DNA of 34,990 bases from Candidatus Tenebribacter burtonii (lineage in GTDB: Bacteria; Cloacimonadota; Cloacimonadia; Cloacimonadales; TCS61). Under the pieces are notes generated by a model that had not been told where the DNA came from, ran no database searches, and worked only from the letters and a program-made list of their open reading frames with translations. Every line of letters begins with the position of its first letter. Positions within the stretch are counted from its first letter, which is position 1. The position numbers were made by a program, and so were the translations under genes. The DNA is taken from NCBI GenBank assembly GCA_030765625.1, contig JAVCCF010000109.1, positions 1-34,990 on the forward strand, given 5' to 3'. Below are positions 10,766 to 34,990 of this stretch, one piece after another.

Positions 10766-12871
10766 CTAATTCTTCTTCCTCCAAACCGTAACTTGTGAAA
10801 TTCCATGTTTGAATATTCTAGCATTTTGACGTAATATAAAAGGAATATCAATTGGTTCACTATCCAGTTGGAAATTTTTTCCCAAAATTTCTTTCATTGC
10901 ATCTAAAGAAGTGAATGGTTCACCATCTCTACGAAAACCACCAAGTTTATTTTCCGGTTTGGTTGTATCGTCCTGCAAATTATAAGTAGATGCGATGATC
11001 AAAGTGGAATTAGCATTCATACGCTCATTTATCATCATTAAGAATTTCTTCGGATCGTAAGTTAATTCCAAAGCATTTTTTACTAGAACAAGATCATAGC
11101 CTGTATATTTAGGAATTAGGTTGGAAATATCTCCCTGAAAAAAATCTACCTTGTCGGCATACTTTTCCAAACCAAATTCGGATAATTTTTTTTCATGGAA
11201 ACTGATCAAATCACCTTCTTCTAATAATGTGTAGTTTAAAATTTCTTTATCTCGCATGGCAACACCTGCTTTTAAATGGTGGGCAGTAAAATCTAATCCG
11301 GTTACATTTTCAAATTCTCGTGCCAGTTCAAAAGTGGTTCTTCCTACTTTACAACCAATGCTAAGTGCATGTTTCTTGGGCTTTTTGATAACTGCGTTCA
11401 AGGCAAAATCAGTTAAAGCTTTCTGAAAATTTGAAATTCCAAAATGTTCTTCTCCCCAATGCATATCACAATAAGGCGTTACATCGGCTTCTTCTTCATA
11501 CATGTTATCAGGCAGATTTACAGTTTCATCTGTTTCGATATAGCGGAAGCCAACATGCTGATAAAAATGACGCCGGAATGCAAAACGAGCGTGTTTTGTT
11601 GCTTCATTTCCGGTTGATATCCAACTACCTCCTTTAAAAAGATTGTGTCGATTATCGAAAGTAGGTGTAGAAAAATCATCATAAAAAGGATGTACTTTAA
11701 AGCCAGGAAAGCTGTGTATTGGAATCTCAGTCCATTGCCATACATTACCGATCACGTCATAGAAATCACCAAATCTGAAATGATCTACTGGATAAGAAGA
11801 TGCTTTATACTCCAGATTAATGTTTCCTGGTGCTTTTCCCCATTGGTGTTGGTCAGGTAAATTGTGAAGATCATAGAATCTATACCATTCGGCTTCCGTA
11901 GACAATCGCAGTGTCTTACCAGTTTTGTCACTTAACCAATTACAGAATGCCTTAGCTTCCAAATAATTCACTTCCACCGGCCAGTTCCAGGGCATATTGA
12001 TAACACTTGCCATAGTTCTAAACTTCCAGTATTCTTCTTCTTTTATCCAAAATCGGGGGAATTCAGCTTGCTGAAATTCTTTCCAATTCCATCCCTCTTC
12101 CGTCCAATATTGTTTTAGATAATAACCATTATTTTTTATGAATTGCATAAATTCATGATTGGAAACAAGAAATTTTGAAGCTTTAAATTGTTTGATATTT
12201 TCTTCCATAAAACCATATTCACAATCCCAACCAAAAAGTGGATGATTTTCTGATTTTCCCATTTTCACTTTGCCACCTGGGACAGATAATAATTCATTTA
12301 TTGGAGCTTCTCCCCACACTCGATTGATTTCCCAAAAATCGGTTTGCACCACTTCTTCAATTGGAAGCTGACGGATGAGTACAGAAGAGGTTTCGACATG
12401 AATTCTAGAATGTTCAATTCCCATCATAATAATCCAGAAAGGGTTTTCCCAACTTATTGGCATTGTGAGCGGAAGCTGTTTTATCAGACGATCTATTGTA
12501 TTTCTAACTTTATTTCGGTATGATCTTACAGCTTTTACAGTTGGCCAGTCGTAATGGGCTTTATTTAAATCGTCCCAGCTCATTTCATCTACTCCCACAG
12601 CAAACATTGACTCGAATTTTGGATCAATTTTTTTATCCAGGATCCTGGCTAAAACTAACTTGTTGATATAAAATACCGCTGTGTGACCGAAGTAAAATAT
12701 GAGAGGATGGCGGAGAGGATCTGCTCGCAGAAAATAGCTATCATCTCCTCTTAAAGTTTCAAATAATTTTTCATCCAGATCAAATGAATCATGAAAATAT
12801 TTTAAGATCTCAGTTCGTTTTTTTTCAGGATCACCTTCACGCAAATTTATTGTTTTAGTTACTCTTTGCAC
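10766..12871 (-). CDS. ovoA: OvoA: 5-histidylcysteine sulfoxide synthase / mercaptohistidine methyltransferase
   Basis: The product belongs to the family that joins cysteine to histidine with O2 on a non-haem iron and then N-methylates the thiohistidine to ovothiol A. In order it has a DinB-like four-helix domain, an FGE-sulfatase-like domain (about residues 195-455, ending in GGSW and GFRYIET) and a SAM methyltransferase domain (about 480-701, motif SIGCKVGRTTFELA). Counting from the GTG start, the iron ligands appear to be His63 (FGHT), His154 and His158 (HSRIHVE, the HX3HXE motif). The full length near 700 residues fits OvoA. I chose the GTG at 12871: AGGAGG (12881-12886) lies 9 nt before it, and it sits where OvoA proteins normally start. 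The ATG at 12895 has no Shine-Dalgarno site. No OvoB-type sulfoxide lyase is in the window. Confidence 0.9.
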   Translation of the reverse strand: MQRVTKTINLREGDPEKKRTEILKYFHDSFDLDEKLFETLRGDDSYFLRADPLRHPLIFYFGHTAVFYINKLVLARILDKKIDPKFESMFAVGVDEMSWDDLNKAHYDWPTVKAVRSYRNKVRNTIDRLIKQLPLTMPISWENPFWIIMMGIEHSRIHVETSSVLIRQLPIEEVVQTDFWEINRVWGEAPINELLSVPGGKVKMGKSENHPLFGWDCEYGFMEENIKQFKASKFLVSNHEFMQFIKNNGYYLKQYWTEEGWNWKEFQQAEFPRFWIKEEEYWKFRTMASVINMPWNWPVEVNYLEAKAFCNWLSDKTGKTLRLSTEAEWYRFYDLHNLPDQHQWGKAPGNINLEYKASSYPVDHFRFGDFYDVIGNVWQWTEIPIHSFPGFKVHPFYDDFSTPTFDNRHNLFKGGSWISTGNEATKHARFAFRRHFYQHVGFRYIETDETVNLPDNMYEEEADVTPYCDMHWGEEHFGISNFQKALTDFALNAVIKKPKKHALSIGCKVGRTTFELAREFENVTGLDFTAHHLKAGVAMRDKEILNYTLLEEGDLISFHEKKLSEFGLEKYADKVDFFQGDISNLIPKYTGYDLVLVKNALELTYDPKKFLMMINERMNANSTLIIASTYNLQDDTTKPENKLGGFRRDGEPFTSLDAMKEILGKNFQLDSEPIDIPFILRQNARIFKHGISQVTVWRKKN

Positions 12872-12903
12872 GCTAAAATCCCTCCTAAAATTCATATACT
12901 GTT

Positions 12904-17622: not shown

Positions 17623-18240
17623 CTATTTATTAGTACGTGTGTCGATAATGCTTGTCTCTTTCGGTAAAATCAATTCAAAAATTTTATCAGGTAATATTTT
17701 ATTAATTTGAATATCCGAAAATTTATAAATAACATAATTTTTATTTTTATCCATAATATCAAATTCTACGATCATTTTATTTGAGATCGTGATAATAATT
17801 TTTTCTTCTTGAGGTGTTAGTAATTTGATCTTAATTGTGTTATCAAATTGCTCTACAAGCTCCTTTTCAGATATATCCCAATAATGAGAAATAAATTTGT
17901 CAGGTCTTAATTCCATTTCAAATTCATCTGAAATGATTGCTTGTTCTGCTACAGGATCGTACATTGTCATAGAATTTTTATTTATTAGAAGTTTCTGTCC
18001 GTCCGGTTGGGAATAATCCATTAGAAAGTTCTCTTTGTCATAATATAATTTTCCTACAGAACTTTTATAAATATCTATCTCTTCCCAGTAATTTATTTGT
18101 AAATAAGAAGCTTCATAAGTGTTTAAAGAAGAGAAGGTTAACAATACATCACTATATGCTTTTTCCAATGTTTGATCGTTTGCTAATAATAAGGTTGGAA
18201 GCATAAGAAAAAGCAATATTTTATTCAGGTAAGTAACCAT
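17623..18240 (-). CDS. lolA: LolA-like outer-membrane lipoprotein carrier
   Basis: This 205-residue periplasmic protein has an N-terminal signal peptide (MVTYLNKILLFLMLPTLLLA). The body fits the LolA fold: SSLNTYEASYLQ, GKLYYDKENFLMDYSQPDGQKLLINKNSMTMYDP and alternating beta strands. In that family the half-barrel shields the acyl chains of lipoproteins released from the inner membrane and hands them to the outer membrane. Its first 20 nt overlap the end of ftsK, an arrangement (ftsK-lolA) also seen in many other diderms. AGGAGG lies 12 nt upstream of the ATG, inside ftsK. The sequence is diverged, so I call it LolA-like by fold pattern and context. Confidence 0.8.
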   Translation of the reverse strand: MVTYLNKILLFLMLPTLLLANDQTLEKAYSDVLLTFSSLNTYEASYLQINYWEEIDIYKSSVGKLYYDKENFLMDYSQPDGQKLLINKNSMTMYDPVAEQAIISDEFEMELRPDKFISHYWDISEKELVEQFDNTIKIKLLTPQEEKIIITISNKMIVEFDIMDKNKNYVIYKFSDIQINKILPDKIFELILPKETSIIDTRTNK

Positions 18241-20464
18241 AAATCTTCATATCCTCCTCAGATGCCAGAACTTCTCTGGATTTACTTCCCACATGTGGAC
18301 CTACAATACCAGCTTGCTCCATCATATCTATAAGTCTTCCAGCACGAGCATAACCTATTTTGAAATGTCTCTGCAGCATTGAGACAGATGCAGATCCGGC
18401 TGAAACGATTGCTACTGCTGCTTCAGGGAAAAGTTCATCATCATAATCAAAGCTTCCCTGAAAAATATCTTCATCTTTAATTATCTTAATTTGTTGTTCA
18501 GGTTTAGGTTGAGTAAGAAGATATTTTATTATATCGAGAATTTCTGAAGGTTCAATGTATGCGCCATGTATTCTCTGCATTCCGCCAACACCTGTTGAGC
18601 TGTAAAGACTATCACCATTTCCTAATAATTTATCAGCACCATTAGCATCAAGAATTACTCTGGAATCAATTTTAGTTGGAACTTTAAACGCAATTCTAGA
18701 AGGAATATTAGCTTTTATGATTCCTGTAAGAACTTGAGTTGAAGGACGCTGTGTCGCAAGGATTAAGTGAATTCCAATTGCTCTTGCCATTTGAGCTAAT
18801 CTTGTTATTAATCTTTCTATATCTTTACCAATTGTCATGATAAGATCTGCAAGTTCGTCTACAACAATAACAATATATGGTATTGGTTCATCTAAAATTT
18901 CAGAGTTTTCTGTTTTTTTAGTCTTTTTCAGTAATTCTTTCACTTGTTTGTTATAGGAAGCAATATTTTTTACTTTATGCTTTTGTAAAAGCTCATAGCG
19001 TTTTTCCATCTCTGAGACACACCAATGTAACACTTTTAGAGCATCTTCATTATCTGTTACAACTTCCTGGATCAGATGTGGAATTCCCTCATAAACTGAT
19101 AGTTCAATTCTTTTAGGATCGATAAGAATAAAACGAATTTCTTCTGGCTTCATCCGGAAAATAATACTATTAATAATTGTGTTAATGCAGACACTTTTAC
19201 CTGTTCCTGTGGCTCCAGCAATAAGCAAATGCGGCATTGCAGCAAGGTCTGCTATTATAGGATTTCCGGCAATATCTTTTCCAAGACCTAATGCGATATG
19301 TCCCCTAAAAGATTTCATCTCATCAGATTGTAGAATATCTTTTAAGTAAATTGTATCTCGGTTTTTATTTGGAATTTCAATTCCAACTAATCCGCGACCA
19401 GGGATTGGAGCTTGAATACGAATACTTTTAGCTTTAATAGCTAACGCTAGATCATCCGCCAGAGCATGGAATTTACTTACCTTAACTCCCGGTGCAGGTT
19501 CAATTTCATATTGAGTTATGATAGGTCCGATATTTACATTTTTAACTTCTGCATTAACCCCAAATTCTGCAAGTTTATCAATAAGAATCCTGCTAATATT
19601 ATTGATGTTTCTTTGAATTTCCTCTCTATCTTCTTTTGATGGCTGTACACTTGAAAGAAAGCGAACAACATCTGGTACAGCATATTCCATAAGTATATCA
19701 TTAATATCATCTTTATTCTGAGTCATTTGTTGAGGATGGATAATAGGCTTTTTAAATTCTTCTTGTTTTTCTTTTCTAACTGCATGGTCAGTAATCTTAG
19801 GTGTTTTATTCTTTTTCTGTTTTAAAGGTTTCTTTTTTTTTTCTCTCTTTGGTTTCTTTGAGAATATCATTGAGAATAATGCTTTAATCCCACGACCTAC
19901 CGTAATTGCAATAAAAATAAGAAATTTCCGGATATTCTCAATATCAAAAATAAAGATCAATGAAATAAAGACTACAGTTGAAGAAATAATACCTGTTCCG
20001 GTACGATCAAATATATTTATTAGAAAACTGTATAATTTCCAGGGAATAATTCCTGCAGCATCCAGATATCTTGGAAAAATTACAAATGAACCAATATTAG
20101 CAAAGAATGCAAATATAATAAAACTTATTACACGTGTATAAGGATGTTTTTCTTTTATTAGAAAGATCATGAAAAATCCCAGAAACATACTGCCTATAAG
20201 CAATGAAATGCTAAAAAATTTGCCGAATATTAGAGAGAACCAATATCCAAAGAATGCTCCAAAGGGACCAATAGGATTAGAAACAGGAGGAAAATCTAAT
20301 TTAATGAATTTGAAAATATTTAGTTCTGCTTTTTGTAATAGTTGATAATCCTGCACTATTTCACTGAGAGGAACCAAGATTGATACCAGAAACAATAACG
20401 AAAACAGCAGTATGATAATTCCAAAAAATATTTGTAGAAATTTATTTTTACCTTCTTTTTCCAT
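18221..20464 (-). CDS. ftsK: DNA translocase FtsK/SpoIIIE
   Basis: This membrane-anchored DNA pump at the division septum clears and sorts the chromosome termini. The N-terminus has about four hydrophobic membrane segments (residues 10-32, 66-103, 112-130, 160-190), then a lysine-rich linker (203-235). The motor follows, with an alpha part (about 255-385), Walker A GATGTGKS (417-424), Walker B IVIVVDELAD (531-540) and the TQRPS motif (571-575). A winged-helix gamma domain (about 677-740, SVSMLQRHFKIGYARAGRLIDMMEQ) would read polar DNA motifs and contact XerD. The length of 747 residues and the domain order are typical, so it looks intact and active. A GAGG motif precedes the ATG. Confidence 0.95.
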   Translation of the reverse strand: MEKEGKNKFLQIFFGIIILLFSLLFLVSILVPLSEIVQDYQLLQKAELNIFKFIKLDFPPVSNPIGPFGAFFGYWFSLIFGKFFSISLLIGSMFLGFFMIFLIKEKHPYTRVISFIIFAFFANIGSFVIFPRYLDAAGIIPWKLYSFLINIFDRTGTGIISSTVVFISLIFIFDIENIRKFLIFIAITVGRGIKALFSMIFSKKPKREKKKKPLKQKKNKTPKITDHAVRKEKQEEFKKPIIHPQQMTQNKDDINDILMEYAVPDVVRFLSSVQPSKEDREEIQRNINNISRILIDKLAEFGVNAEVKNVNIGPIITQYEIEPAPGVKVSKFHALADDLALAIKAKSIRIQAPIPGRGLVGIEIPNKNRDTIYLKDILQSDEMKSFRGHIALGLGKDIAGNPIIADLAAMPHLLIAGATGTGKSVCINTIINSIIFRMKPEEIRFILIDPKRIELSVYEGIPHLIQEVVTDNEDALKVLHWCVSEMEKRYELLQKHKVKNIASYNKQVKELLKKTKKTENSEILDEPIPYIVIVVDELADLIMTIGKDIERLITRLAQMARAIGIHLILATQRPSTQVLTGIIKANIPSRIAFKVPTKIDSRVILDANGADKLLGNGDSLYSSTGVGGMQRIHGAYIEPSEILDIIKYLLTQPKPEQQIKIIKDEDIFQGSFDYDDELFPEAAVAIVSAGSASVSMLQRHFKIGYARAGRLIDMMEQAGIVGPHVGSKSREVLASEEDMKIYGYLPE

Positions 20465-20481
20465 TTTTACCTCATTGCGTT

Positions 20482-20510
20482 ATTATATATGAATTTCGCT
20501 GATAGATTAA
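20482..20510 (-). promoter_or_regulatory. Possible promoter for ftsK-lolA-manC
   Basis: On the minus strand TTAATC, 17 nt, then a consensus TATAAT (20482-20487), placed in the 61-nt gap between ychF and ftsK. The -35 match is weak. Confidence 0.35.
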
Positions 20511-20525
20511 TTTAAATATCTAAAT

Positions 20526-21596
20526 CTAAACGCTAAATCTTATATTTAATATGTCTCCATCTTGAACGATGTATTTTTTACCTTCAAGTCTGAATAAACC
20601 TTTTTCTTTCAAATTTTTTTCACTACCGTACTGTATTAGATCATTGTATGAGAAGCATTCCGCACGAATAAAACCTCTTGCAAGATCAGAATGGATCTTA
20701 CCGGCTGCTTCAACTGCATTATCACCTTTTGTGATTGTCCAGGCTCGAACTTCATCTTCTCCTACTGTAAAGAAACTGAGATAACCAAGAAGATCATAAG
20801 AAAACTTGGTGAGACGATTTCTGGCGGATTCGCTAATATTCATATCCTTCATGAATTCAATTGCCTCATCTGTATCTAAAGAGTTTAATTCCATTTCAAA
20901 GGTTCCTGCAAATTCTATAACATTATATTTTTTACTTAAACTGTTAATTAACAAATCATTATTGCCAAAATTATCTTCATCAGAATTAAGTATTACCAGC
21001 AAAGGTTTTTGTGTAATGAATTGAAATCCACGGACAGCTTTTTCTTCATCACTTGCAAGATCAAGAGTTCGAATCGGATTTGAATCTTCAAGATGTGCAA
21101 TTATTTTTAAAAGAGCCTTTTCTTCAAGTTGAAGAGCTGAATCCTTGATTCCTCTTTTTTTACTTAATTCAACTTTATCAAGTCTTTTTTCTGCAATTAT
21201 TAAATCTGAAATAATCATATCAGAATCAATTGAATCCACATCAGAAAATGGATCTGCTGCATTACCCGAAATAGGATCATCAAAATTGCGAACTACGAGG
21301 GCAAGAGCGTCTGCAGTTTTAACTAGTCCCATTCCAGAATTACTAAATGCATCATTATTGTTTTTATTTTCGGATAATCCAACAAAGTCAATATATTCAA
21401 TTGTTGCAAAAATAGTTTTCTTAGGATTGTACATTTCCGAAAGCTTTTCCACTCTTTCATCCTCAACCTGAACAATTCCCTGGTTAGGTTCTATTTTTTG
21501 AGATGAATAAGAAGTCACTTCAGCTTCTAATCCAGTAAGTGAATTAAATATTGTTGTTTTTCCTGAATTTTGTAAACCAATTAAACCTATTTTCAT
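20526..21596 (-). CDS. ychF: YchF/OLA1-family P-loop NTPase
   Basis: This 356-residue translation-associated OBG-type NTPase belongs to a family that prefers ATP and binds ribosomes. The G1 loop reads GLQNSGKTTIFNSLTG (residues 7-22), where the usual form is GLPNVGKST. The G3-equivalent region is IEYIDFVGL, and the G4 position, LNSDE, departs from NKxD as expected for YchF. The C-terminal TGS/DUF933 domain (about residues 275-356) has FFTVGEDEVRAWTITKG, KIHSDLARGFIRAE and QDGDILNIRF. It starts one base after the stop of the rluB-like gene, so the two are co-transcribed. The G1 variation is mild and leaves the P-loop Lys and Thr in place. Confidence 0.92.
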   Translation of the reverse strand: MKIGLIGLQNSGKTTIFNSLTGLEAEVTSYSSQKIEPNQGIVQVEDERVEKLSEMYNPKKTIFATIEYIDFVGLSENKNNNDAFSNSGMGLVKTADALALVVRNFDDPISGNAADPFSDVDSIDSDMIISDLIIAEKRLDKVELSKKRGIKDSALQLEEKALLKIIAHLEDSNPIRTLDLASDEEKAVRGFQFITQKPLLVILNSDEDNFGNNDLLINSLSKKYNVIEFAGTFEMELNSLDTDEAIEFMKDMNISESARNRLTKFSYDLLGYLSFFTVGEDEVRAWTITKGDNAVEAAGKIHSDLARGFIRAECFSYNDLIQYGSEKNLKEKGLFRLEGKKYIVQDGDILNIRFSV

Positions 21597-21597
21597 T

Positions 21598-22332
21598 TTA
21601 TTTCCTTTTTGTGTTTGTTTTGCTTGTATAAAGCAATGACGTTACTTCAGAGGGCTTGAGCATTCGCCACATCCCTAATGGAAGTTTATTTAATTTCACA
21701 TTTCCAATCTGTAATCTTTTTAACTCCAGAACCTCAGAACCTACGCTTTTCAGCATATAGCGAATTTGTCTTTTCCTTCCTTCGAAGATAGTTATTTTAA
21801 GTGTAGTTATATTATTTTTAACATTATTTACATAAACAATAGCAGGTTTTGTTTTTTTCCCATTTAAGATAATTCCTTTTCGAAGCTTATCAATACTATC
21901 GGAAGTTATATTTCCTTTGATTTTTACTTTGTATAATTTTTGAAGTTTATATTTAGGATGGATAATTTTTTCTGCGAAATCACCATCGTTTGTAAGTAAC
22001 AACAAACCTTCTGACATATAATCCAATCTGCCAATATAAAATAAATTAGTTCCAAAATCGGGTAAAAGATCATAAATAAGCCTTCTATCAAAATCATCTT
22101 TTTTCGATACCAGGTATTTTTTCGGTTTATTTAGCATCAAATAGATGTTTTCTGATTTAGGAATAATTAGTTTTCCTTCGTGTTTTATGATATCCACGTT
22201 TGGATTAATCTGTAAAGAAAGATTTGTTTCAACTTTACCATTAATTGAAATTTTACCATCTAAAACTAATTTTTCAACAGATCTACGGGATCCAAGATTG
22301 CATTGTGCTAAGTATTTATTTATTCTTACCAT
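21598..22332 (-). CDS. rluB: RsuA/RluB-family pseudouridine synthase
   Basis: This 244-residue rRNA pseudouridine synthase has an N-terminal S4 RNA-binding domain (about residues 2-48, RINKYLAQCNLGSRRSVEKL). The catalytic domain carries Asp104 in GRLDYMSEGLLLLTNDG. Later marks are KPAIVYV, EGRKRQIRYMLKSVG and LPLGMWRMLKPSEV, all typical of the RsuA/RluB/RluE/RluF group. The exact target uridine (16S or 23S rRNA) cannot be fixed from sequence, so the symbol is a best guess. It overlaps the lptE-like gene upstream by 7 nt and is followed by ychF after 1 nt. Confidence 0.88.
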   Translation of the reverse strand: MVRINKYLAQCNLGSRRSVEKLVLDGKISINGKVETNLSLQINPNVDIIKHEGKLIIPKSENIYLMLNKPKKYLVSKKDDFDRRLIYDLLPDFGTNLFYIGRLDYMSEGLLLLTNDGDFAEKIIHPKYKLQKLYKVKIKGNITSDSIDKLRKGIILNGKKTKPAIVYVNNVKNNITTLKITIFEGRKRQIRYMLKSVGSEVLELKRLQIGNVKLNKLPLGMWRMLKPSEVTSLLYTSKTNTKRK

Positions 22333-22814
22333 TCTTCTAAGGTATTTTTCATTATAATTTCGAAAAGCTTTACAAATATTTCTTCTTGAGATTCAACTTC
22401 ACTCTTAAATTGACTATTTTCATCAGAAATAGAATATCTTTCTGAAATAACTAAAGAACTATTTTGCCAGAGAACAGTATTTTTTAATAAATCAGTAAAG
22501 GTTATATCGAATAAAATACGAACCTCATATTCATCTATTGATGATCCAGAATATGAAAAAATTTTATTAGAATAATCATGAATGCTACATTCTAATTGAC
22601 AATCAGGGGATAATCCAACTAATTTAAGACGTCCATCCATTTCATAACTATCAATAAGAGAATTAAAGGCTAAATCTAAAAGATCATAATTACTAGTTTG
22701 ATTTTCAACAGGTAAAATAAGAACAGTTTTAAGATACGGATAACCTGTTGTATAGACTGAATAGCTACAGCCAATTATAAGTAGAGTAATCACTAAGATA
22801 ATTTCAAATTTCAT
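22326..22814 (-). CDS. lptE: LptE-like lipoprotein (LPS assembly)
   Basis: This 162-residue lipoprotein has a signal peptide ending in the lipobox IIGC (Cys16). After it, YLKTVLILPVENQTSNYDLLDLAFNSLIDSY and DGRLKLVG follow the LptE pattern of a short beta domain. In that family it forms the plug of the LptD outer-membrane translocon for lipopolysaccharide. The region DYEVRILFDITFTDLLKNTVLWQNSS matches the family's C-terminal strands. It is the first gene of the run ending in manC. LptE proteins are poorly conserved, so the name rests on pattern, size and lipobox, and LptD is not in the window. Confidence 0.75.
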   Translation of the reverse strand: MKFEIILVITLLIIGCSYSVYTTGYPYLKTVLILPVENQTSNYDLLDLAFNSLIDSYEMDGRLKLVGLSPDCQLECSIHDYSNKIFSYSGSSIDEYEVRILFDITFTDLLKNTVLWQNSSLVISERYSISDENSQFKSEVESQEEIFVKLFEIIMKNTLEEW

Positions 22815-22927: not shown

Positions 22928-23593
22928 ATGGTAATTGAGTATTTAACATTGAGACAAGCTGCTGCATATTTAAAAGTTACTGATTCAGTAATTAAGGAGA
23001 TGACAAAAAGTAAAATATTTTCTGCAAAGAAAGTTGGGAACACTTATAAAATAGAAAAAGCAGAAGTTGATGAATGGCTTGCAAATTTGAACGAAAGAGA
23101 AATTGAACATTTAGCATTAAAAAGGTCAGTTTGCAAATTTTCTGATTATTTTAAACCGAAATATATCCATCTAGATTTTATAGCAGATAACAAATACGAA
23201 GCAATTGGAGAGATGTCAAAAAAAGCAAAGGATCTGAAAATTGTTCGTGACCATAGATGGTTGTATCAGGTCGTTGTAGCTAGAGAAGAACTGGTGTCAA
23301 CAGCAATAGGCAAAGGTGTAGCTTTACTACATCCGCGGCATTTGCATCCTTCAAAGATAAAGAAGCCGAGTATATTGTTTGGAAGATCAGCTGAAGATAT
23401 TGAGTTCGATGCTTTAGACAATAAACCTGTAAAGCTATTTTTCATGTTATTGTTACATGATGATATTCAACATCTATTTTCAATTTCTTACATATCAAAA
23501 TTATTAATGAATGAAGGGATATTAAACATTCTAAGAAGTGCGAAAACAAATGAAGAAATTGTTAAAGTTTTAACAAAAAGTTTATTGAAATAA
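22928..23593 (+). CDS. Excisionase-type helix-turn-helix fused to PTS EIIA-like domain
   Basis: Residues 1-55 form a MerR/excisionase-family DNA-binding domain (YLTLRQAAAYLKVTDSVIKEM, then VGNTYKIEKAEVDEWL). Residues about 70-220 match the PTS EIIA-2 (fructose/Ntr) fold. The likely phosphorylated His is His135 in AIGKGVALLHPRHLHP, which aligns with the usual GIAIPH. The doublet LH instead of PH is a variation. FMLLLHDDIQHLFSISYISKLL is the conserved EIIA tail. No PTS permease, HPr or EI gene is nearby, so a regulatory rather than transport role is likely, with DNA binding perhaps controlled by phosphorylation. It faces the lptE-like gene across a shared promoter region and ends 5 nt before parS. 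Confidence 0.8.
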   Translation: MVIEYLTLRQAAAYLKVTDSVIKEMTKSKIFSAKKVGNTYKIEKAEVDEWLANLNEREIEHLALKRSVCKFSDYFKPKYIHLDFIADNKYEAIGEMSKKAKDLKIVRDHRWLYQVVVAREELVSTAIGKGVALLHPRHLHPSKIKKPSILFGRSAEDIEFDALDNKPVKLFFMLLLHDDIQHLFSISYISKLLMNEGILNILRSAKTNEEIVKVLTKSLLK

Positions 23594-23598
23594 CTTCT

Positions 23599-23614
23599 TG
23601 TTTCACGTGAAACA
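23599..23614. other. parS centromere site
   Basis: TGTTTCACGTGAAACA is a perfect 16-bp palindrome identical to the canonical parS site bound by chromosomal ParB. It sits in the 21-nt space between two converging genes and touches the stop codon of the minus-strand gene. The parA and parB genes lie about 10 kb to the right, as expected of an origin-proximal parS cluster. Confidence 0.95.
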
Positions 23615-24832
23615 TTAATTCAGATTATCAAATTCTCTAATCCATCTTAGAGTCTGATAATATTTATTTGATGCGTTCCAAAGTATGTATCCATCAGAAT
23701 TTGAATCTTTAACCGCTTGTATTTGTGCAGTAATATAATCATATCCGTAATTGACCTTCCATGAATTTGATTGAATATATGGAATAACTCTACATTCACT
23801 ACCGGCATATCTTTTTGATAATATAATTCCCTTATAAACGATGAAATATGGCTCATTGTAAAGATTCTCTCTAAATCCAAAATTTTTAGCAAAATGAGAT
23901 GAATAGATCATTGGATGTATGGCATCGAGATATTTAGTCATCTTCTTGATATCTTGTCCTGTAGCATTTATATCAGCTTTTCTTTGCCACGATACTATAG
24001 CAAATAAATCGGCAGTTAATGTGACTTCATATTTGTCACATATCTGTTTTGCTTTTGAAACAAAGTCCATAATAATATCAGATTTTTGTCTGAAAATGTA
24101 TGTTGAATCATTTTCAGCTTTTGTATAATCTTCTTTTTGAAAGGCAAATATCGCTTCTGAAATTTTTCCCTGAGTTGGGAATCGAACATAATCCAGTTGA
24201 ATCTCATCTACACCTTTTTGTGCAATTACCTCAATAATATCCAATAAAGTATTTTGAACATACATATTTGATGAATCCAGCCAGGAAGCTTTTTTTCTTT
24301 TGCTTTCTTTCCATACTCCGCCATTTGTATTTTCAGGCATTAATGTCGAATCTCGTTGTGCGGTTAACTGATCATGGAACATTACCATTCTGGCAACGGC
24401 TCTCATATCTCGTTCATGAGCTGCATTAACTACTTTATTAATGTTAACGATCGGTTTAATATTTTCGCTTGTCAGAAAGCCTTTTTGCGGCATTCTAAAG
24501 AAAATGTGTCCATTCATATTCTTGAGATCAAAAATTAAGGTATTTATCCCAGCAGCATCAGCACTATCTAATATCGTATAAAATTTAGGTGTGTTAATAG
24601 TATATGCTGTCAAATATATACCTTTTGTAAAATTTTTATATTGTAATTTTATTTGAATGTCTTGTTTGGATTGTTCTTTTTTAATTCTTTGTTTTTCTGG
24701 TTGAGTTATTTTTTTTGATGTATCTGTTTTAACAATTACCAGTTCAATAATATTTTGAATTTTATTCTCTTTTTTTTCTGTGCAAGAAATTATTATTACT
24801 AGTAAAAAAAATAAGAAGTATCTGATTTTCAT
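23615..24832 (-). CDS. Lipoprotein of the DUF4015 (glycosidase-like TIM barrel) family
   Basis: This 405-residue lipoprotein has a signal peptide with Cys17 in VIIISC, then a charged Lys/Glu/Gln-rich linker (about 18-65). A TIM-barrel-like domain of the putative glycosyl hydrolase family DUF4015 follows: KGIYLTAYTINTPKFYTILD, NTLIFDLKNMNGHIFF, RAVARMVMFHD, GVDEIQLDYVRFPTQG and DAIHPMIYSSHF. The acidic IQLDYVRFP strand is the most conserved part and a candidate active-site edge. Activity on glycans is a family-level prediction only. The ATG is 21 nt beyond the atp terminator, leaving little room for its own promoter, so it may depend on read-through. The stop codon abuts parS. Confidence 0.8.
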   Translation of the reverse strand: MKIRYFLFFLLVIIISCTEKKENKIQNIIELVIVKTDTSKKITQPEKQRIKKEQSKQDIQIKLQYKNFTKGIYLTAYTINTPKFYTILDSADAAGINTLIFDLKNMNGHIFFRMPQKGFLTSENIKPIVNINKVVNAAHERDMRAVARMVMFHDQLTAQRDSTLMPENTNGGVWKESKRKKASWLDSSNMYVQNTLLDIIEVIAQKGVDEIQLDYVRFPTQGKISEAIFAFQKEDYTKAENDSTYIFRQKSDIIMDFVSKAKQICDKYEVTLTADLFAIVSWQRKADINATGQDIKKMTKYLDAIHPMIYSSHFAKNFGFRENLYNEPYFIVYKGIILSKRYAGSECRVIPYIQSNSWKVNYGYDYITAQIQAVKDSNSDGYILWNASNKYYQTLRWIREFDNLN

Positions 24833-24887: not shown

Positions 24888-25286
24888 TTATTCAGAATTC
24901 AATCCCAACCGAACAAGAGCTTTTTTCAAGGAAGACTCAGCGCGTCGGAAATTTATATTTTCCTCTGAACTTTTCAGTCGTTTTTCAGCACGTTTCCTTG
25001 ATGCATTAGCACGTGCAATATCTATCTCATTTTTCTTTTCAATCGTATCACATACAATTGTTACAACATTATTTTCCACTGTAACAAATCCATCATGGAT
25101 TGCATATTCTTCGCAATATTCATTTTGGAAAAGTTGAAGAACGCCTATCCTAATTTTTGTAATAAACGGTGTATGGTCAAAAGAAATCCCAAAATCACCA
25201 GCAACACCAGGAATAATTAAATGATCGCATTCTTTATCAATTCTGATCTGAGTTGGCTGAATAACTTTAATATGAATTTTACTCAT
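24888..25286 (-). CDS. atpC: ATP synthase F1 epsilon subunit
   Basis: This 132-residue central-stalk subunit couples rotation and can inhibit ATP hydrolysis. The N-terminal beta sandwich is recognised by IIPGVAGDFGISFDHTPFITKIRIGVLQL and YAIHDGFVTVENNVVTIVCD. The C-terminal helical hairpin, RANASRKRAEKRLKSSEENINFRRAESSLKKALVRL, is complete, so the regulatory arm is kept. It is the last gene of the operon, 8 nt after atpD, and is followed at once by a terminator. Confidence 0.95.
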   Translation of the reverse strand: MSKIHIKVIQPTQIRIDKECDHLIIPGVAGDFGISFDHTPFITKIRIGVLQLFQNEYCEEYAIHDGFVTVENNVVTIVCDTIEKKNEIDIARANASRKRAEKRLKSSEENINFRRAESSLKKALVRLGLNSE

Positions 25287-25294
25287 CAGGAATA

Positions 25295-26704
<1,410 letters not shown>

Positions 26705-26727
26705 TTATATTCTATAACTTTTTTCTA

Positions 26728-27582
26728 TTATTGCTGGATAGCTTCCGCTCCAGACGATATTTCAATTATCTCTGTTGTGATCGCTGCCTGTCTTGCTCTA
26801 TTATAATTAAGAGTAAGTCTATCAATTAGTTCAGCAGCATTCTCAGTTGCAGAATCCATTGCAGTCATTCTGGCACCTTGCTCCGCAGCGGAAGATTCTA
26901 ACATTATTCTCCAAATATCAACATGAATATATTTTATTCCAAGTTCAAATATTATTGTATCTTCATCCGGTTCATAAACGTAATCTAATTTGGAATTTTT
27001 TTCGGATTCAATAGGAACGATTGGTAAGAGTTGTTTTACCACAATATCATGCCGGATCGCAGATTTAAATTCATTATAAATAACATTGATTTTATCATAA
27101 TTTTCATCTAAAAACAAACTTAATATTTTTTCTGCTACATCCCCTGAAACACTGAAGTCCATCTCATTGAAAAGATTGATATAATTCTCTGTTACCTTTG
27201 TAGAATGTTTTTTGAAATAATCATAACCTTTTTTCCCAATACAGACCAGATCAGCATCAGGATTTTCCTTATGGTGAGCAATTGCCTCTTTTATTATGTG
27301 TGTATTAAAAGAACCGCAAAGACCTCTATCGGAAGTTACAACCACATAAGCTGTTTTACCTTTACCTGTAGCTTCAGCCAATAAGGGATGATCGGAAGAA
27401 ATATTTTTATTCTTCAGTGTTTGAAGCATTTGATTTATGTGATCTGAATACGGTCTGGCATTAATAATATTATCTTGAGCTTTTCGTAACTTGGATGCAG
27501 CTACCATTTTCATAGCATTTGTGATCTGCTTTGTACTCTTAACACTTTCAATCCGTGTTTTAATCTCTCTTAAATTAGCCAT
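26728..27582 (-). CDS. atpG: ATP synthase F1 gamma subunit
   Basis: This 284-residue rotor shaft has the N-terminal helix LREIKTRIESVKSTKQITNAMKMVAASKLRKAQ and the matching C-terminal helix GARMTAMDSATENAAELIDRLTLNYNRARQAAITTEIIEI, which form the coiled coil inside the alpha-beta hexamer. The central fold (VVTSDRGLCGSFNTHII) is intact. It starts 6 nt after the atpA stop. Confidence 0.97.
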   Translation of the reverse strand: MANLREIKTRIESVKSTKQITNAMKMVAASKLRKAQDNIINARPYSDHINQMLQTLKNKNISSDHPLLAEATGKGKTAYVVVTSDRGLCGSFNTHIIKEAIAHHKENPDADLVCIGKKGYDYFKKHSTKVTENYINLFNEMDFSVSGDVAEKILSLFLDENYDKINVIYNEFKSAIRHDIVVKQLLPIVPIESEKNSKLDYVYEPDEDTIIFELGIKYIHVDIWRIMLESSAAEQGARMTAMDSATENAAELIDRLTLNYNRARQAAITTEIIEISSGAEAIQQ

Positions 27583-27588
27583 AATTCC

Positions 27589-29088
27589 CTAAAATTTTGA
27601 TAATACTTTTTTGCAAATTTTATGCATAGCTTCTTTTGTTTTGTCGGTAAGTTTATCCTTGATCATGCTTTCCATGAATTCTTTATATTCGGAGTCTAAT
27701 GTAGAATAAAGTTCCTCTTCAAATTTTTGCACATTTTCCACTTCAATTTCATCAAGATAACCTTCATTTGCCATAAAGATAATGAATGTCTGTTTAGCTA
27801 CTGATAAAGGTGAATACTGTGCTTGTTTCAGTATTTCAACTATCCGTCTTCCTCTTGTAATCTGTGCTTGAGTTGCTTTATCGAGGTCTGATCCGAATTT
27901 AGCGAAAGCTTCAAGTTCCGTATATTGAGCCAAAGCAACACGAAGTTGCCCTGTTACGCTTTTCATAGATTTAAGCTGTGCATTTCCACCTACACGTGAT
28001 ACAGAAAGTCCGGCATTAATTGCAGGACGGATTCCTGAATGGAATAAACGACTATTCAAAAAAATCTGACCATCCGTGATCGAGATAACATTCGTTGGAA
28101 TATAAGCCGTCAGGTCGTCTGCTTGTGTCTCAATAATTGGAAGAGCAGTAAGTGAACCACCTCCCAGTTCATCATTAAGTTTAGAAGCTCGTTCCAAAAG
28201 ACGTGAATGAAGATAGAAAACATCTCCAGGATATGCTTCACGTCCGGGCGGTCTTCTTAGAAGTAAAGAGAGTTCTCTGTAAGATACAGCATGTTTAGAT
28301 AGATCATCATAAATAATGAGTGCGTGTTTTCCTTTATCACGGAAATATTCTCCCATTGTACATCCTGAATATGGTGAAAGATACTGCAAGGAAGCTGATT
28401 CTGCTGCTGAGGCAATAACCACAATAGTGTATTTCATAGCTCCACTTGCTTCAAGTGTATTTACTATTTTTGCAACAGACGATTTTTTTTGTCCGATAGC
28501 TACATAAACGCAAATAATATCAGTGTCTTTCTGATTTAAAATCGTATCGATCGCAATTGCTGTTTTACCTGTCTGGCGGTCACCAATGATCAATTCGCGT
28601 TGTCCTCTTCCAATTGGTATCATTGAGTCAATCGCCTTAAGTCCTGTTTGAAGCGGTTCTTTTACCGGCTGTCTTTGTATCACACCAAGAGCTTTTCTCT
28701 CAACAGGATGATATTCTTCAACTTTGATTTCACCTTTTCCATCCAGTGGTTCTCCAAGAGCATTCACAACACGACCCAACATCGCTTCACCTACAGGAAC
28801 CTGAAGGATCTTCTTAGTCCTTTTGGCAATATCACCTTCTTTGATCTTTTCCGCTTCACCAAATATGATACATCCGACATTGTCTTCTTCCAGGTTCAAT
28901 GCCATTCCCATAACATCACCGGGGAATTTTATCATTTCGCCTGCCATCACATTGTCCATTCCATAAATACGGGCAATACCGTCTCCTACCTGAACAACTT
29001 TTCCGGTTTCAGAAATATCAATATCAAATTTTAGTCCTTTGATCTTATCTCTCAGGATCGAACTTATTTCATCTGGTTGTATTTTCAT
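27589..29088 (-). CDS. atpA: ATP synthase F1 alpha subunit
   Basis: This 499-residue non-catalytic nucleotide-binding subunit has the P-loop GDRQTGKT, the strand [47 protein letters not shown], and the [22 protein letters not shown] segment with the arginine finger. All family hallmarks are present and the length is usual. It follows atpH after 7 nt. Confidence 0.98.
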
Positions 29089-29095
29089 ACTGGCC

Positions 29096-29641
29096 TCATT
29101 TCTTTTTTATTGACTTAACTTTTAACAGCTTTACTAAATTATTTTTGATTGATCCGTCAATTAACAAAGAATCCGTAGTAGCTACAAATCCTCCTAATAT
29201 ATCAGGATCGATTTTTGTTTCTAAAATTACATTTTTTTCTAGAATATTTTTTAATTTTAATGATATAGAATTAATCACATTCTCGGGTAATTCATGAGCA
29301 ATGGTTAATCCAACTTTGATTTTGTTATGCCTATCTAATATCTTGTTTTCCAAATCTTGCAGAATCTCTGTGATAATATTAAATCTGTGTTTTTTAATGA
29401 GAATACTGAATAAGTTTTTCCAAAGCTCTATGTTCTTTAATTTCTGCGTCATACTTAATGCTATTTCCAAACGCTTATTAGCTGGAAATAGATAAGAATT
29501 AACTGTCTTTATAAGCTCTGGCTCAGTTTTTATTGAACTGTTCATTATCTCGACATCAGCTAATATTGATTTAATTTCTTTATCATCAAGTCCACTAATA
29601 ATAGCATGAGAATATCGTTGAGCAACGAGTGTATTTTTCAT
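29096..29641 (-). CDS. atpH: ATP synthase F1 delta subunit
   Basis: This 181-residue peripheral-stalk subunit sits on top of F1. The N-terminal helical bundle begins [16 protein letters not shown]. The conserved C-terminal part, [44 protein letters not shown], is clear. Its ATG overlaps the atpF end by 4 nt, so the two stalk genes are translationally coupled. Confidence 0.95.
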
Positions 29642-30120
29642 TTGTTTCTTTTCTCAGAGATAATTTTTTTTATCAATTCTTTATCTCTCTTCTCATCAAG
29701 TTTTTCTGATAGAAATTTAGAAGAAAGTTCTGCAATCATTTCTGTCAGTTCATCTTCTATTTCTCCCATAACCTTTACTTTCTCGGTTTTAAGTTGTTTT
29801 TCCGTATCCTTTAATATTCGTTTTTCGTGTTCTTTTGCATTTTTCATGATGTCTTTGGCTTTACCTTCAGCATCACTGGTAGCAGCATTCTTCATCTTCC
29901 TAATCTCTTCAGCAGATTGCTTTAAATTATCATTTTTTTCTTCAACAAGTTTTTCAGCTTTCATACGGGAAGCCTTTGCTTCATCAATATTGGAAGCTAT
30001 TTTTTGCTGCCGCTCTTCCAAGATTTTTTTGATCGGTTTATACAGAATCTTATTCAGAACGATCAGTAAAAGTATGAAATTCAGAATCACAATAATGAGA
30101 GAATAATCTATACTAATCAT
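29638..30120 (-). CDS. atpF: ATP synthase F0 b subunit
   Basis: This 160-residue peripheral-stalk subunit has one N-terminal membrane helix (residues 7-26, SLIIVILNFILLLIVLNKIL), then KPIKKILEERQQKIASNIDEA and a long charged helical coiled coil rich in Lys, Glu and Ala to the end. Only one b-type gene is present, so the stalk is probably a homodimer. A 77-nt gap with a hairpin separates it from atpE. Confidence 0.95.
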   Translation of the reverse strand: MISIDYSLIIVILNFILLLIVLNKILYKPIKKILEERQQKIASNIDEAKASRMKAEKLVEEKNDNLKQSAEEIRKMKNAATSDAEGKAKDIMKNAKEHEKRILKDTEKQLKTEKVKVMGEIEDELTEMIAELSSKFLSEKLDEKRDKELIKKIISEKRNK

Positions 30121-30141
30121 AAAATCTCCAAATTAATATTT

Positions 30142-30172
30142 CGCTGTTGGAAATTATTTCTTCCAACTAGCG
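30142..30172 (-). other. Hairpin between atpE and atpF
   Basis: An 11-bp stem with one bulged base is formed by CGCT-GTTGGAA and TTCCAAC-T-AGCG around an 8-nt loop. No T run follows in the minus direction, so it is not a standard terminator. It lies 25 nt past the atpE stop and could block 3' decay or partly terminate to raise c-subunit mRNA. Confidence 0.5.
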
Positions 30173-30197
30173 TTTAATGTCAGGTTTTGGGTTACTC

Positions 30198-30452
30198 TTA
30201 AGTTGAGAATATCAACAAAAGTGCAATAACCAGTGAATAGATACCTGTTGACTCAGACACAGCCTGACCAACAAGCATAGTACGTGTAATAAGACTTGCA
30301 TTTTCCGGTGAACGAGCTATTCCTTCACAAGCTTTACCCGCTACAAATCCCTCACCAACCCCTGGTCCTAAAGCACCCATTCCCATACACATTCCTGCAC
30401 CCAGAAGTGCAGCAGCTTTTACGATTCCTTGTGCTAATGTAATGTTATCCAT
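30198..30452 (-). CDS. atpE: ATP synthase F0 c subunit, single hairpin
   Basis: This 84-residue rotor protein has two membrane helices joined by the polar loop ARSPENAS (Arg47). The ion-binding carboxylate is Glu67 in VSESTGIYSLV. The residues Glu67, Ser68, Thr69 and Tyr72 fit the sodium-type signature of Ilyobacter and Fusobacterium c subunits. Helix 1 has Glu34 (GVGEGFVAGK) where Ilyobacter has Gln32, which is the two-carboxylate arrangement known from Fusobacterium nucleatum. Na+ coupling is therefore plausible but not shown. A strong GGAGG precedes the ATG. It sits directly after a triple-hairpin c gene, so the ring may be mixed. Confidence 0.95.
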   Translation of the reverse strand: MDNITLAQGIVKAAALLGAGMCMGMGALGPGVGEGFVAGKACEGIARSPENASLITRTMLVGQAVSESTGIYSLVIALLLIFST

Positions 30453-30482
30453 TTTTCCTCCAATATCTTTATACTAAATTAT

Positions 30483-31235
30483 TTATACTGCAAAGATCAG
30501 CAGAAAAGCAACCACTAACGAATAGATCGCTGTTGATTCTGATACTGCTGCTCCGAGAAACATCGTTCTCATAATTTTTGATCTTTCTTTAGGGAATTTA
30601 CCCATCATATCATTTGCTTTACCGGCAACATAACCAATCCCTGCCCCGGGACCAATCGTTCCCAGTCCAATTGCCATTCCTGCCCCAATCAATGAAATTG
30701 ATTTTAATAAAATCTTACCTACTGAAAGTCCTATCGGTTGATTTGGAACAGAATACAAAAGCAATAATGCCACAACGAGGGCAAATATGGCAGAAGTTTG
30801 TGATAATGCCTGACCTATGAGCATATTTCCCATTATTGCATTACCATGTTTTGGCATTCTTGCTACAGATTTGCATGCTTCTCCACCGGAATATCCTGCA
30901 CCCAAAGAGGGACCAAATGCACCAATTCCCATAGCCAATCCGGCAGCAAGTAAAGCAGCAGCTCTATACCAACCGCCTTCAGTAATATCAAAACCACCAT
31001 ATATCAACAGCATGGAAATCACTAAGGCAAAGATTCCTGCAGTTTGTGCCGCTGCTTGACCAATAAGCATCGTTCTGAATAATTGGTCATTAGCTTTGGG
31101 TTGTCTCATTACTCCCAGAGCACCCTCACCAGCAATTATTCCTGATCCAATGCCCGTGGTAATTGCCCCCAAACCAACACTTATTCCCGCTCCGAGATAT
31201 GCTGCAATTCTAATATATTCAACAGATAATTCCAT
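30483..31235 (-). CDS. Triple-hairpin ATP synthase c subunit with a single ion-binding glutamate
   Basis: This 250-residue fusion contains three c-type hairpins (six membrane helices), about residues 1-81, 82-167 and 168-250. Each has the glycine-rich helix 1 and a cytoplasmic loop (MRQPKAND, ARMPKHGN, GKFPKERS). The carboxylate position reads Gln64 (AAAQTAGIFALV), Gln146 (ALSQTSAIFALVV) and Glu233 (VSESTAIYSLVV), so only the third hairpin can carry an ion. The codons are CAA, CAA and GAA. Fused c subunits with fewer sites are known in V-type ATPases, in Acetobacterium woodii (two hairpins, one Glu) and in Methanocaldococcus jannaschii (three hairpins, two carboxylates). The frame is unbroken and the start lies 2 nt after the atpB stop. 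I infer a working rotor subunit that lowers ions moved per turn. Confidence 0.9.
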   Translation of the reverse strand: MELSVEYIRIAAYLGAGISVGLGAITTGIGSGIIAGEGALGVMRQPKANDQLFRTMLIGQAAAQTAGIFALVISMLLIYGGFDITEGGWYRAAALLAAGLAMGIGAFGPSLGAGYSGGEACKSVARMPKHGNAIMGNMLIGQALSQTSAIFALVVALLLLYSVPNQPIGLSVGKILLKSISLIGAGMAIGLGTIGPGAGIGYVAGKANDMMGKFPKERSKIMRTMFLGAAVSESTAIYSLVVAFLLIFAV

Positions 31236-31237
31236 TA

Positions 31238-32149
31238 TTACTCCGAGATTTCAACACCGATATATGTAAGTGCCAGCATTGTGAAAACAAATGCCTGTAT
31301 TGTTCCAACAAACAGTCCAAAGAAAAGAATTAAACCAACTGGTAAAACCACGTAACTAACCAGAGATGAGACAACTGTAATAATGATTGCTCCTCCCAAA
31401 ATATTCCCAAATAATCGGAAAGAAATTGATACAACCTTAGAAATTTCTCCAATAATGTCGAGAAGGAAAAGGGGGTTTTTAACTGGGTTTACATAATTTT
31501 TGAGATGACCCCATACACCTTTTACTTTAATTGCTGTTATATGAACAATGGATACTGCAAGAATTCCAAGTCCAAGTGGAACATTAAGATTTCTGGTTGG
31601 TTCCATAAATCCCGGGATCGGGATCATTCCAATCATATTACTGACCCAGATGAATAAAAAAAGAGTTACAATATAGGGTGTAAAATTTACTTTTTCTTTG
31701 CCAAGTGTTTCTGTCACAAATTGTTCCAAAGCAGTGTATACCATTTCAAATAATATCTGAGGTTGGGAAGGTCTTTTCAATAATTTCTTTTTTATCAGGA
31801 GAGCAATAAACAGTAGCAGAATATCAACAATAAGCAGCATCCGCAAAAGTTGGAATGTTCCAATTGCTGTAGTTTTACCAAATATATTTTTAAAGAATTC
31901 ATAGGTTTTATTACTACCGTAAATTTTTGGCGTTTCACCGTTTTGACGATAATATTCATCTATCTGGAATTCTTCGGTTATTTTTTCTTGAAGGTCGTAA
32001 TGGCTCTGAATATTTCTAAAAACAAATTTTCCATCATCAAATCCAATTTGGAGTTGTTTATTGAAGCCACTTGAAACAAATACAAGGGCAGTTTCAATAA
32101 TGATAAAGAAAATAAAAATCTTTAAGATCGGGCTTTTCTTTTTAGTCAT
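31238..32149 (-). CDS. atpB: ATP synthase F0 a subunit
   Basis: This 303-residue stator channel subunit has the essential Arg245 in ISFRLFGNILGGAI. Other hallmarks are FTPYIVTLFLFIWVSNMIGMIP and the C-terminal GLFVGTIQAFVFTMLALTYIGVEI. The N-terminus has one membrane helix followed by a long hydrophilic segment (about residues 30-90) that would lie on the periplasmic side. It is the first core F0 gene, 1 nt after atpI and 2 nt before the triple-hairpin c gene. Confidence 0.96.
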   Translation of the reverse strand: MTKKKSPILKIFIFFIIIETALVFVSSGFNKQLQIGFDDGKFVFRNIQSHYDLQEKITEEFQIDEYYRQNGETPKIYGSNKTYEFFKNIFGKTTAIGTFQLLRMLLIVDILLLFIALLIKKKLLKRPSQPQILFEMVYTALEQFVTETLGKEKVNFTPYIVTLFLFIWVSNMIGMIPIPGFMEPTRNLNVPLGLGILAVSIVHITAIKVKGVWGHLKNYVNPVKNPLFLLDIIGEISKVVSISFRLFGNILGGAIIITVVSSLVSYVVLPVGLILFFGLFVGTIQAFVFTMLALTYIGVEISE

Positions 32150-33157: not shown

Positions 33158-33823
33158 CTACTTTTTAACATTAATATATTCTTCTGGATCGACATTTACC
33201 CCATTTAACATTATTTCATAATGCAGATGCGGAGCAGAACTATTTCCAGTATTTCCAACCAGTGCAATAGTCTCTCCCTTTTCCACAGTATTTTTGCCCT
33301 CAAAAAATGTTGTTGCAAGATGTGCATAAAGCGTAGCATATTCATTAAAATGATCTATCATTATTACATTACCATAATTTTTATCGTAATATACAGACAG
33401 TATTTCGCCTGCTGCGACAGCTACAACTTCAGTACCTGTAGCGGCTGCAAAATCCAATCCGGGATGCTTCTCAGAAAACCGCTGGCTTATAGCAAAATCA
33501 CCTTTTACGGGAATAATATCCGGCATAAATCTACGTTTCTCATTATAATGAATAACTTTTCCGTAATTTCCATTTACATCTCCATTTTGCTCTTCTAAAT
33601 AAGTATCCAATAATGCTTGTATTTTCTCTTCATTTGTTTTGGAAAATGAAACAAGATTAATGTCATCTGCAATTTTTCTATTTAATTGCTTTATATATTT
33701 TGCTGAAACTACAAGTTCTTCCTGTTGTTTTAATACCAGCTTTTTCAGCTTGATATTTTCTGCATAAAACCAGGCTGTGATTAGTAAAACGATGATCAAT
33801 AATATTGCAACAATAAATTTCAT
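33158..33823 (-). CDS. Membrane-anchored M23 (LytM) peptidoglycan endopeptidase
   Basis: This 221-residue protein has one N-terminal membrane helix (residues 3-20), a charged coiled-coil stretch (about 24-78), and an M23 domain (about 110-215). The zinc and catalytic residues are all present: His120 and Asp124 in HPGLDFAA, His168 in YAHL, and His199 and His201 in PHLHYEI. It is therefore probably an active cell-wall hydrolase facing the periplasm. Its ATG overlaps the parB stop by 4 nt, and bactofilin follows, so it likely acts with that scaffold in shaping the wall. Confidence 0.92.
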   Translation of the reverse strand: MKFIVAILLIIVLLITAWFYAENIKLKKLVLKQQEELVVSAKYIKQLNRKIADDINLVSFSKTNEEKIQALLDTYLEEQNGDVNGNYGKVIHYNEKRRFMPDIIPVKGDFAISQRFSEKHPGLDFAAATGTEVVAVAAGEILSVYYDKNYGNVIMIDHFNEYATLYAHLATTFFEGKNTVEKGETIALVGNTGNSSAPHLHYEIMLNGVNVDPEEYINVKK

Positions 33824-34671
33824 TTTCCTAATTTATCCAATAATTTTTTCAGTTCATCTTGAGAAGAGTAATAGAAGCTAACTTTTCCCTTATAATTATT
33901 ATCAGAAATTTTAACTTTAGATTTGAATTTATGTTTCAGGTTTTTTTCAAATTCTTTTAATTCGGGAATATCAATTACAACTTTTTTCTTTTTAGAATGA
34001 GAAACTAAACCTGTTTCTTTTATTCGCTTAGCTTCTTCCTCTGTTTTTCTAACAGAAAGCTTATTCTTTATAATAAGTTGCGAAAACTCATCTCTTAGTT
34101 CTTCATCAACCTGCAAAATAGCCCTTGCATGCCCGGATGATATCTGATCATTTAATATCATCAGCTGTATATCATTACTCAATTTTAATAACCTGATAAA
34201 ATTGGTTATAGTTACTCTGTCCTTACCAACGATTTCAGATATTTGTGCATGTGTAAGTTTGAATTCTTCATTCAATTGTTGATATGCTTTTGCTTCCTCA
34301 ATTGCTGTAAGGTTTTCTCTCTGTACATTTTCGATTATCGCGAATTGCAGTTGCTCTTTAGGTGAAACACTGCGAATAATAACAGGTATTTCGCTGAATC
34401 CCGCTAGCTTAGATGCTTCCAGTCTACGTTCACCGGCAATAAGCTCATAATCACCTTCATCTGTTGTAGTTACGATAATCGGTTGGATTATTCCATTCTC
34501 TTTCAGTGAATTTGCTAGTTCCTGTAATTTTTCAGAGTTAAATAGCTTTCTCGGTTGATATCTATTTGGTTTGATCTTATCAGTTTTTATTGTGGTTATC
34601 CCAGTTGAAACATCTGTAGATTCAGGAACTGCACTTATTAAGGCTTCTAATCCTTTTCCTAATTTTGTCAT
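33820..34671 (-). CDS. parB: Chromosome partitioning protein ParB
   Basis: This 283-residue protein is the parS-binding CTP switch of chromosome segregation. N-terminal marks are MTKLGKGLEALIS (the ParA-stimulating end) and IKPNRYQPRKLF (about residues 34-44). The CTP-binding boxes are GERRLEASKLAG (80-91) and ENVQREN (114-120). The helix-turn-helix is THAQISEIVGKDRVTITNFIRLL (about 140-162). The C-terminal dimer domain (about 230-283, SFYYSSQDELKKLLDKLGK) is complete. A perfect parS lies about 10 kb away in this window. It overlaps parA and the M23 gene by 4 nt on each side. Confidence 0.97.
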   Translation of the reverse strand: MTKLGKGLEALISAVPESTDVSTGITTIKTDKIKPNRYQPRKLFNSEKLQELANSLKENGIIQPIIVTTTDEGDYELIAGERRLEASKLAGFSEIPVIIRSVSPKEQLQFAIIENVQRENLTAIEEAKAYQQLNEEFKLTHAQISEIVGKDRVTITNFIRLLKLSNDIQLMILNDQISSGHARAILQVDEELRDEFSQLIIKNKLSVRKTEEEAKRIKETGLVSHSKKKKVVIDIPELKEFEKNLKHKFKSKVKISDNNYKGKVSFYYSSQDELKKLLDKLGK

Positions 34672-34990
34672 CTTGCCATCACTTCCTTTGCTAATTGTAA
34701 ATAGCTTTTAGCACCCGTAGATTTAATGTCGTAATGGAATATTGATTTTCCAAAACTGGGTGCTTCACTCAATTTGACACTTCGATGAATAATAGTATTG
34801 AATGCCTGTTCCTGGAAATAGCGTCTCACTTCTTTGGCAACTTGAAGAGAAAGGTTAAGTCTCCTATCGTACATAGTGAGCAAAATTCCCATAATATTCA
34901 AATCGGGGTTAAGTCCCTTTTTTATTAATCTAATTGTGTTAAGAAGCTGACTCACACCCTCAAGAGCATAATATTCACACTGAATTGGAA
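34668..34990 (-). CDS. parA: Chromosome partitioning ATPase ParA/Soj, N-terminal part outside window
   Basis: Only the C-terminal 107 codons are visible and the frame is open to the window edge. The GTG at 34955 is internal, because upstream codons read PIQCEYYALEG, the conserved ParA segment. The rest, LLNTIRLIKKGLNPDLNIMGILLTMYDRRLNLS, and IHRSVKLSEAPSFGKSIFHYD, is typical of Soj-type chromosomal ParA. The Walker motifs lie outside the window. It overlaps parB by 4 nt. Confidence 0.95.
   Translation of the reverse strand, partial: PIQCEYYALEGVSQLLNTIRLIKKGLNPDLNIMGILLTMYDRRLNLSLQVAKEVRRYFQEQAFNTIIHRSVKLSEAPSFGKSIFHYDIKSTGAKSYLQLAKEVMAR

Follow-up and report, generated by a model that had tools for sequence, protein, structure and literature searches.

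A conserved chromosomal parS site next to an HTH-EIIA gene in Candidatus Tenebribacter burtonii and other Cloacimonadota

A single parS sequence lies between two converging genes

The perfect 16-bp palindrome TGTTTCACGTGAAACA in the DNA of Candidatus Tenebribacter burtonii is very probably the main, and probably the only strong, chromosomal parS site of this bacterium. ParB from the nearby parAB genes would load on the 16-mer as a CTP-dependent clamp and slide into the flanking DNA, ParA-ATP would move the ParB-parS complex, and newly replicated origin regions would part first. This course of ParB binding, CTP-dependent spreading and ParA-driven movement is proposed by analogy with ParABS systems, in which ParB loads on parS and spreads and ParA moves the complex (PMC7333895). 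The parS identity given in the initial annotation was borne out: the sequence is unique in the genome, it is conserved in place within the genus and the phylum, and the ParB has parS-type specificity residues. The sequence is identical to a known site, and in relatives it lies close to dnaA. It is a site of a known kind, a well-placed chromosomal parS and not a new system.

The window, that is, the whole stretch of DNA that was analyzed, corresponds to positions 1 to 34,990 of a 115,821-bp (115.8-kb) contig from a 2.81-Mb Cloacimonadota assembly (181 contigs, 98% complete). The following features of the window are relevant.

18221..22814, minus strand: block of ftsK, ychF, rluB-like and lipoprotein genes, which travels with the EIIA gene and parS
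22928..23593, plus strand: gene for an HTH_17 and PTS EIIA_2 protein (PF12728, PF00359); parS is anchored to the EIIA gene across the phylum
23599..23614, no strand: parS, the only copy in the genome at up to one mismatch
23615..24832, minus strand: convergent gene for a DUF4015 putative glycosyl hydrolase (PF13200, 224.6 bits), whose stop codon abuts parS
24888..32149, minus strand: atp operon (atpC to atpB), 1.3 to 8.5 kb from parS, a candidate ParB spreading zone
25608..25621, minus strand: second parS-like site, GTTGCACGTGAAAC, in the V-A-R-E-T codons of atpD; it matches the published consensus in its GTTNCACGTGAAAC core and is a weak candidate
33820..34671, minus strand: parB, with ParB_N, HTH_ParB and C-terminal dimerization domains, a GERR motif and the R173/G201 equivalents
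34668..34990, minus strand: 3' part of parA (CbiA/ParA; 88.7% to congener G003), listed in the window as an open reading frame at 34668 to 34955

The 16-mer matches TGTTNCACGTGAAACA, the main chromosomal parS consensus (PMC7022226). When the 2.81-Mb genome was scanned with up to one mismatch allowed, this one match was returned, more than chance would give, as base composition predicts 0.001 copies in the genome (1.3e-5 in the window). A scatter of the 16-mer and its near matches at chance density, which would have spoken against the annotation, was thus not seen. Exact matches to GTTNCACGTGNAAC number two in the genome, both inside the window (23600 and 25608). The palindrome was found where it had been annotated, between converging genes, the first of which, with an excisionase-type HTH (HTH_17), has its stop codon at 23591 to 23593. 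The motif lies within the gap between the two stop codons and takes 16 of its 21 bp. As a small correction, the outermost base is not conserved: where T. burtonii has the first T, sister species have T, A or G. What is conserved of the motif is GTTTCACGTGAAACA.

The site is kept in place next to the EIIA gene in the genus and the phylum

Eight congeners carry parS in the same slot as T. burtonii. Alignment of the nine genus members showed 15 consecutive invariant columns, those of GTTTCACGTGAAACA, while 39% of the columns outside the motif were invariant and the 8 columns just before it averaged 58% identity; the site is therefore kept in relatives above its surroundings. For a survey of the phylum, 80 named loci were fetched by the EIIA protein, and the 68 with at least 1.5 kb of downstream sequence were testable. 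Of these 68 loci, 42 had a site with at most one mismatch in the 3 kb that follow the EIIA gene downstream (range, 7 bp to 2.5 kb), and the other 26 had none within 3 kb; upstream of the gene, a site was found in one locus. The survey gave 60 sites in total, whereas control palindromes matched in composition gave 0.15 on average. Anchoring of parS to the EIIA gene is thus common but not universal. Within the order, GTTNCACGTGNAAC or GTTTCACATGAAAC occurs in 98 of 107 genomes (counted from two tables). A literature search for parS in Cloacimonas returned matches that, judged by title and abstract, were only chance co-mentions.

Families with broken synteny separate the site from some of its neighbors. 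Linkage of parS to atp or to parAB as such was considered and rejected, because in these families the site mostly stays with the block of EIIA, lipoprotein, rluB, ychF, ftsK and lolA genes. One family (f10) retains parS even though no F-type AtpD match was found at the threshold used, and the atp neighborhood therefore does not define parS.

Another possibility is that the palindrome is a terminator hairpin common to both converging genes, with an incidental likeness to parS. The sequence stands where the two genes converge, stop codon facing stop codon, and could fold into a 6-bp stem closed by an ACGT loop. However, its folding is no better than that of shuffled sequences (z scores of -0.84 and -1.14), a terminator scan does not pick it, the ACGT loop bases are as invariant as the stem, and in other families the motif is found 0.5 to 2.5 kb from the EIIA gene. 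We regard a terminator as very improbable.

parS lies near dnaA in relatives

The initial annotation had assigned the site to the origin-proximal domain. This is strongly supported for relatives, whereas for T. burtonii itself it can only be deduced from them, as dnaA is on a separate 7-kb contig (C137). In 27 genomes with dnaA and the site on one contig, the nearest site was 6 to 67 kb from dnaA (median, 14.6 kb); such a sample favors short distances, but several of the contigs were 200 to 360 kb long. The complete relative G044, a single contig of 2.25 Mb, has its sole site with at most one mismatch 23.4 kb from dnaA, while parB is 328 kb away. The sampled GC skew of this genome is weak; its cumulative minimum near 2.18 Mb, close to which dnaA sits, and its maximum near 1.23 Mb fit an origin near dnaA.

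Congener G003 has dnaA, then parB after 56 kb and parS after another 10 kb. Because the T. burtonii contig is syntenic with G003 between parS and about 84 kb, insertions aside, dnaA would be expected beyond the right end of the contig and at least about 92 kb from parS, provided that the G003 order is kept. Taken alone, the contig has a GC skew that is mostly below zero past 10 kb. This would place the origin toward parA, but the skew is weak and confounded by gene strand.

ParB belongs to the parS-reading class, and Smc and ScpA were not found

The statement that parS lies about 10 kb from parA and parB in the same window proved correct, and the parA open reading frame runs on past the window to about position 35459 of the contig. 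The best matches of ParB among solved structures are ParB/Spo0J chains (best E value, 1.5e-46), and ParB was detected in 100 of the 107 order genomes. In Caulobacter ParB, R173 and G201 contact parS, and these residues are Q and R in Noc (PMC7383237). The T. burtonii protein keeps the equivalents of both R173 and G201 in an alignment for which we placed the Caulobacter numbering on the shared GK-x-R and GHAR motifs.

These residues also speak to the idea that the palindrome serves a Noc-like or other ParB-fold regulator instead of the partition ParB. Noc is indeed the best NCBIfam model for this ParB, though below its cutoff, and the position 184 equivalent is Lys; Lys or Arg occurs at this position in about 28% of ParBs (PMC7383237). 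Noc sites, however, are of the ATTTCCCGGGAAAT type, of which the window contains none within two mismatches, the Q173/R201 pair of Noc is not what this ParB carries, and no ParB homolog other than parB was found in the genome. We regard a Noc-like reading, too, as very improbable.

Smc was not found in the genome (best model match of 21 bits against a cutoff of 567), nor was ScpA, the assembly being 98% complete; of the condensin components, the search covered Smc and ScpA. Among the 107 order genomes, with five candidates scored per genome, no Smc match exceeded the cutoff, and ScpA was found in one. Since Smc and ScpA were not found, loading of Smc-ScpAB by ParB-parS is unlikely here, and ParA-driven partition appears the likelier task of the site.

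A CACATG variant occurs mostly where the canonical site is missing

GTTNCACGTGNAAC is present in 74 of the 107 order genomes. The variant GTTTCACATGAAAC was found in 24 of the 33 genomes without GTTNCACGTGNAAC compared to 11 of the 74 with it (counts from tables), giving 35 carriers among the 107 genomes, usually with one or two copies each (e.g., G044:C1:23671-23684). In this parS variant of other Cloacimonadota, TGTTTCACATGAAACA, the central CG is changed to CA, which breaks the palindrome. It resembles the canonical site in the range of its distances from dnaA, in usually occurring once or twice per genome and in sometimes occupying the same slot; in G016, it sits exactly between the EIIA and DUF4015 genes. 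No covariation of the ParB specificity residues with the CACATG variant was seen, the R173 and G201 equivalents being kept in both groups, and H202 differed in just a few genomes, all from a single genus.

Two further arrangements were observed in relatives. In one genome (G050:C39:9958-10000), two sites of the CACATG type lie only 27 bp apart and point in opposite directions. Several relatives (L075:18407, L100:743, L062:11852 and others) carry a degenerate site that reads TGTTTTACGTGAAACA or the complement of this sequence; it precedes the start of parB by about 1.24 kb and apparently lies just upstream of parA; in T. burtonii, no site of this type was present at that place within three mismatches.

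A possible reduced partition system with essentially one parS site

The site shares with the chromosomal parS sites of the ParABS systems of Bacillus subtilis, Caulobacter and Pseudomonas the 16-bp palindrome, the ParB class, the vicinity of parAB and, as far as the relatives go, the origin side. It differs from them in being one strong site instead of a cluster, in its slot downstream of an HTH-EIIA gene and in that no Smc-ScpAB was found. Chromosomes with a single parS, such as that of Xanthomonas campestris, likewise have one canonical site (PMC7333895); here, the phylum is another one, and conservation of the slot was shown for different genera and families. We tentatively suggest, while considering it rather less than an even chance, that Cloacimonadota employ a reduced partition system with essentially one parS by the HTH-EIIA gene and ParAB without Smc-ScpAB, and that in several genera the nonpalindromic CACATG site replaced the canonical one and is still read by an unchanged ParB class.

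The result fixes a likely centromere for a phylum whose genomes here are nearly all metagenome assemblies, and the EIIA gene together with parS provides an anchor from which the origin side can be found when a genome is fragmented. Should Smc-ScpAB prove to be truly missing, Cloacimonadota would allow one to ask what ParB-parS does without Smc loading. The CACATG variants offer a natural way to test how strict ParB is in recognizing its site.

A second parS-like site in atpD is mostly explained by codon choice

The site within atpD matches the published consensus (PMC7022226) in its core and may, as a candidate, be bound by ParB. Together with the intergenic parS 2 kb away, it could form a deliberate pair in which the atpD codons were selected for ParB binding, a proposal that would extend the main explanation and not exclude it. 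The two are the only GTTNCACGTGNAAC sites in the genome, and among the 28 genomes with the VARET peptide, the atpD copy recurs in 7, which come from five genera. On the other hand, this peptide is conserved with or without the parS-like site, and congeners G005 and G001 lack the site. Column-wise permutation of codons predicts 3.9 of the 7 sites (P = 0.03); when each genus is represented by a single genome, the mean P is 0.11. Selection on the atpD copy was set aside as weak by this test. Most of the recurrence is explained by codon choice, and a selected pair seems doubtful to us.

Spreading of ParB over the atp genes, the nearest of which start 1.3 kb from parS, is plausible in scale. Published distances are roughly 2 to 10 kb: in E. 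coli, spreading from a single Caulobacter site covered about 2 kb, and Spo0J reached about 10 kb (PMC5815017). It should not be taken from this that atp expression is affected, because loss of Spo0J had no effect on the genes beside the B. subtilis parS sites, according to a review (PMC7022226).

The atp operon itself encodes a 250-amino-acid c subunit with three fused hairpins and three ATP-synt_C stretches (30483 to 31235, minus strand), which adjoins a normal c subunit of 84 amino acids (30198 to 30452, minus strand). By eye, the ion site is Gln-Thr in hairpins 1 and 2 and Glu-Ser in hairpin 3 and in the single one. This arrangement recalls the mixed c-ring of Acetobacterium woodii, although here the fused subunit has three units.

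Other genes in the window

At the left end of the window, an open frame of 2,063 amino acids (53 to 6244, plus strand) comprises the end of a C10 peptidase domain, GEVED repeats and DUF7901; the start of this gene probably lies beyond the contig end. Farther in, the gene at 10766 to 12895 (minus strand) combines DinB_2, FGE-sulfatase and methyltransferase domains in a single protein, a layout that we take to be that of an OvoA-type ovothiol synthase.
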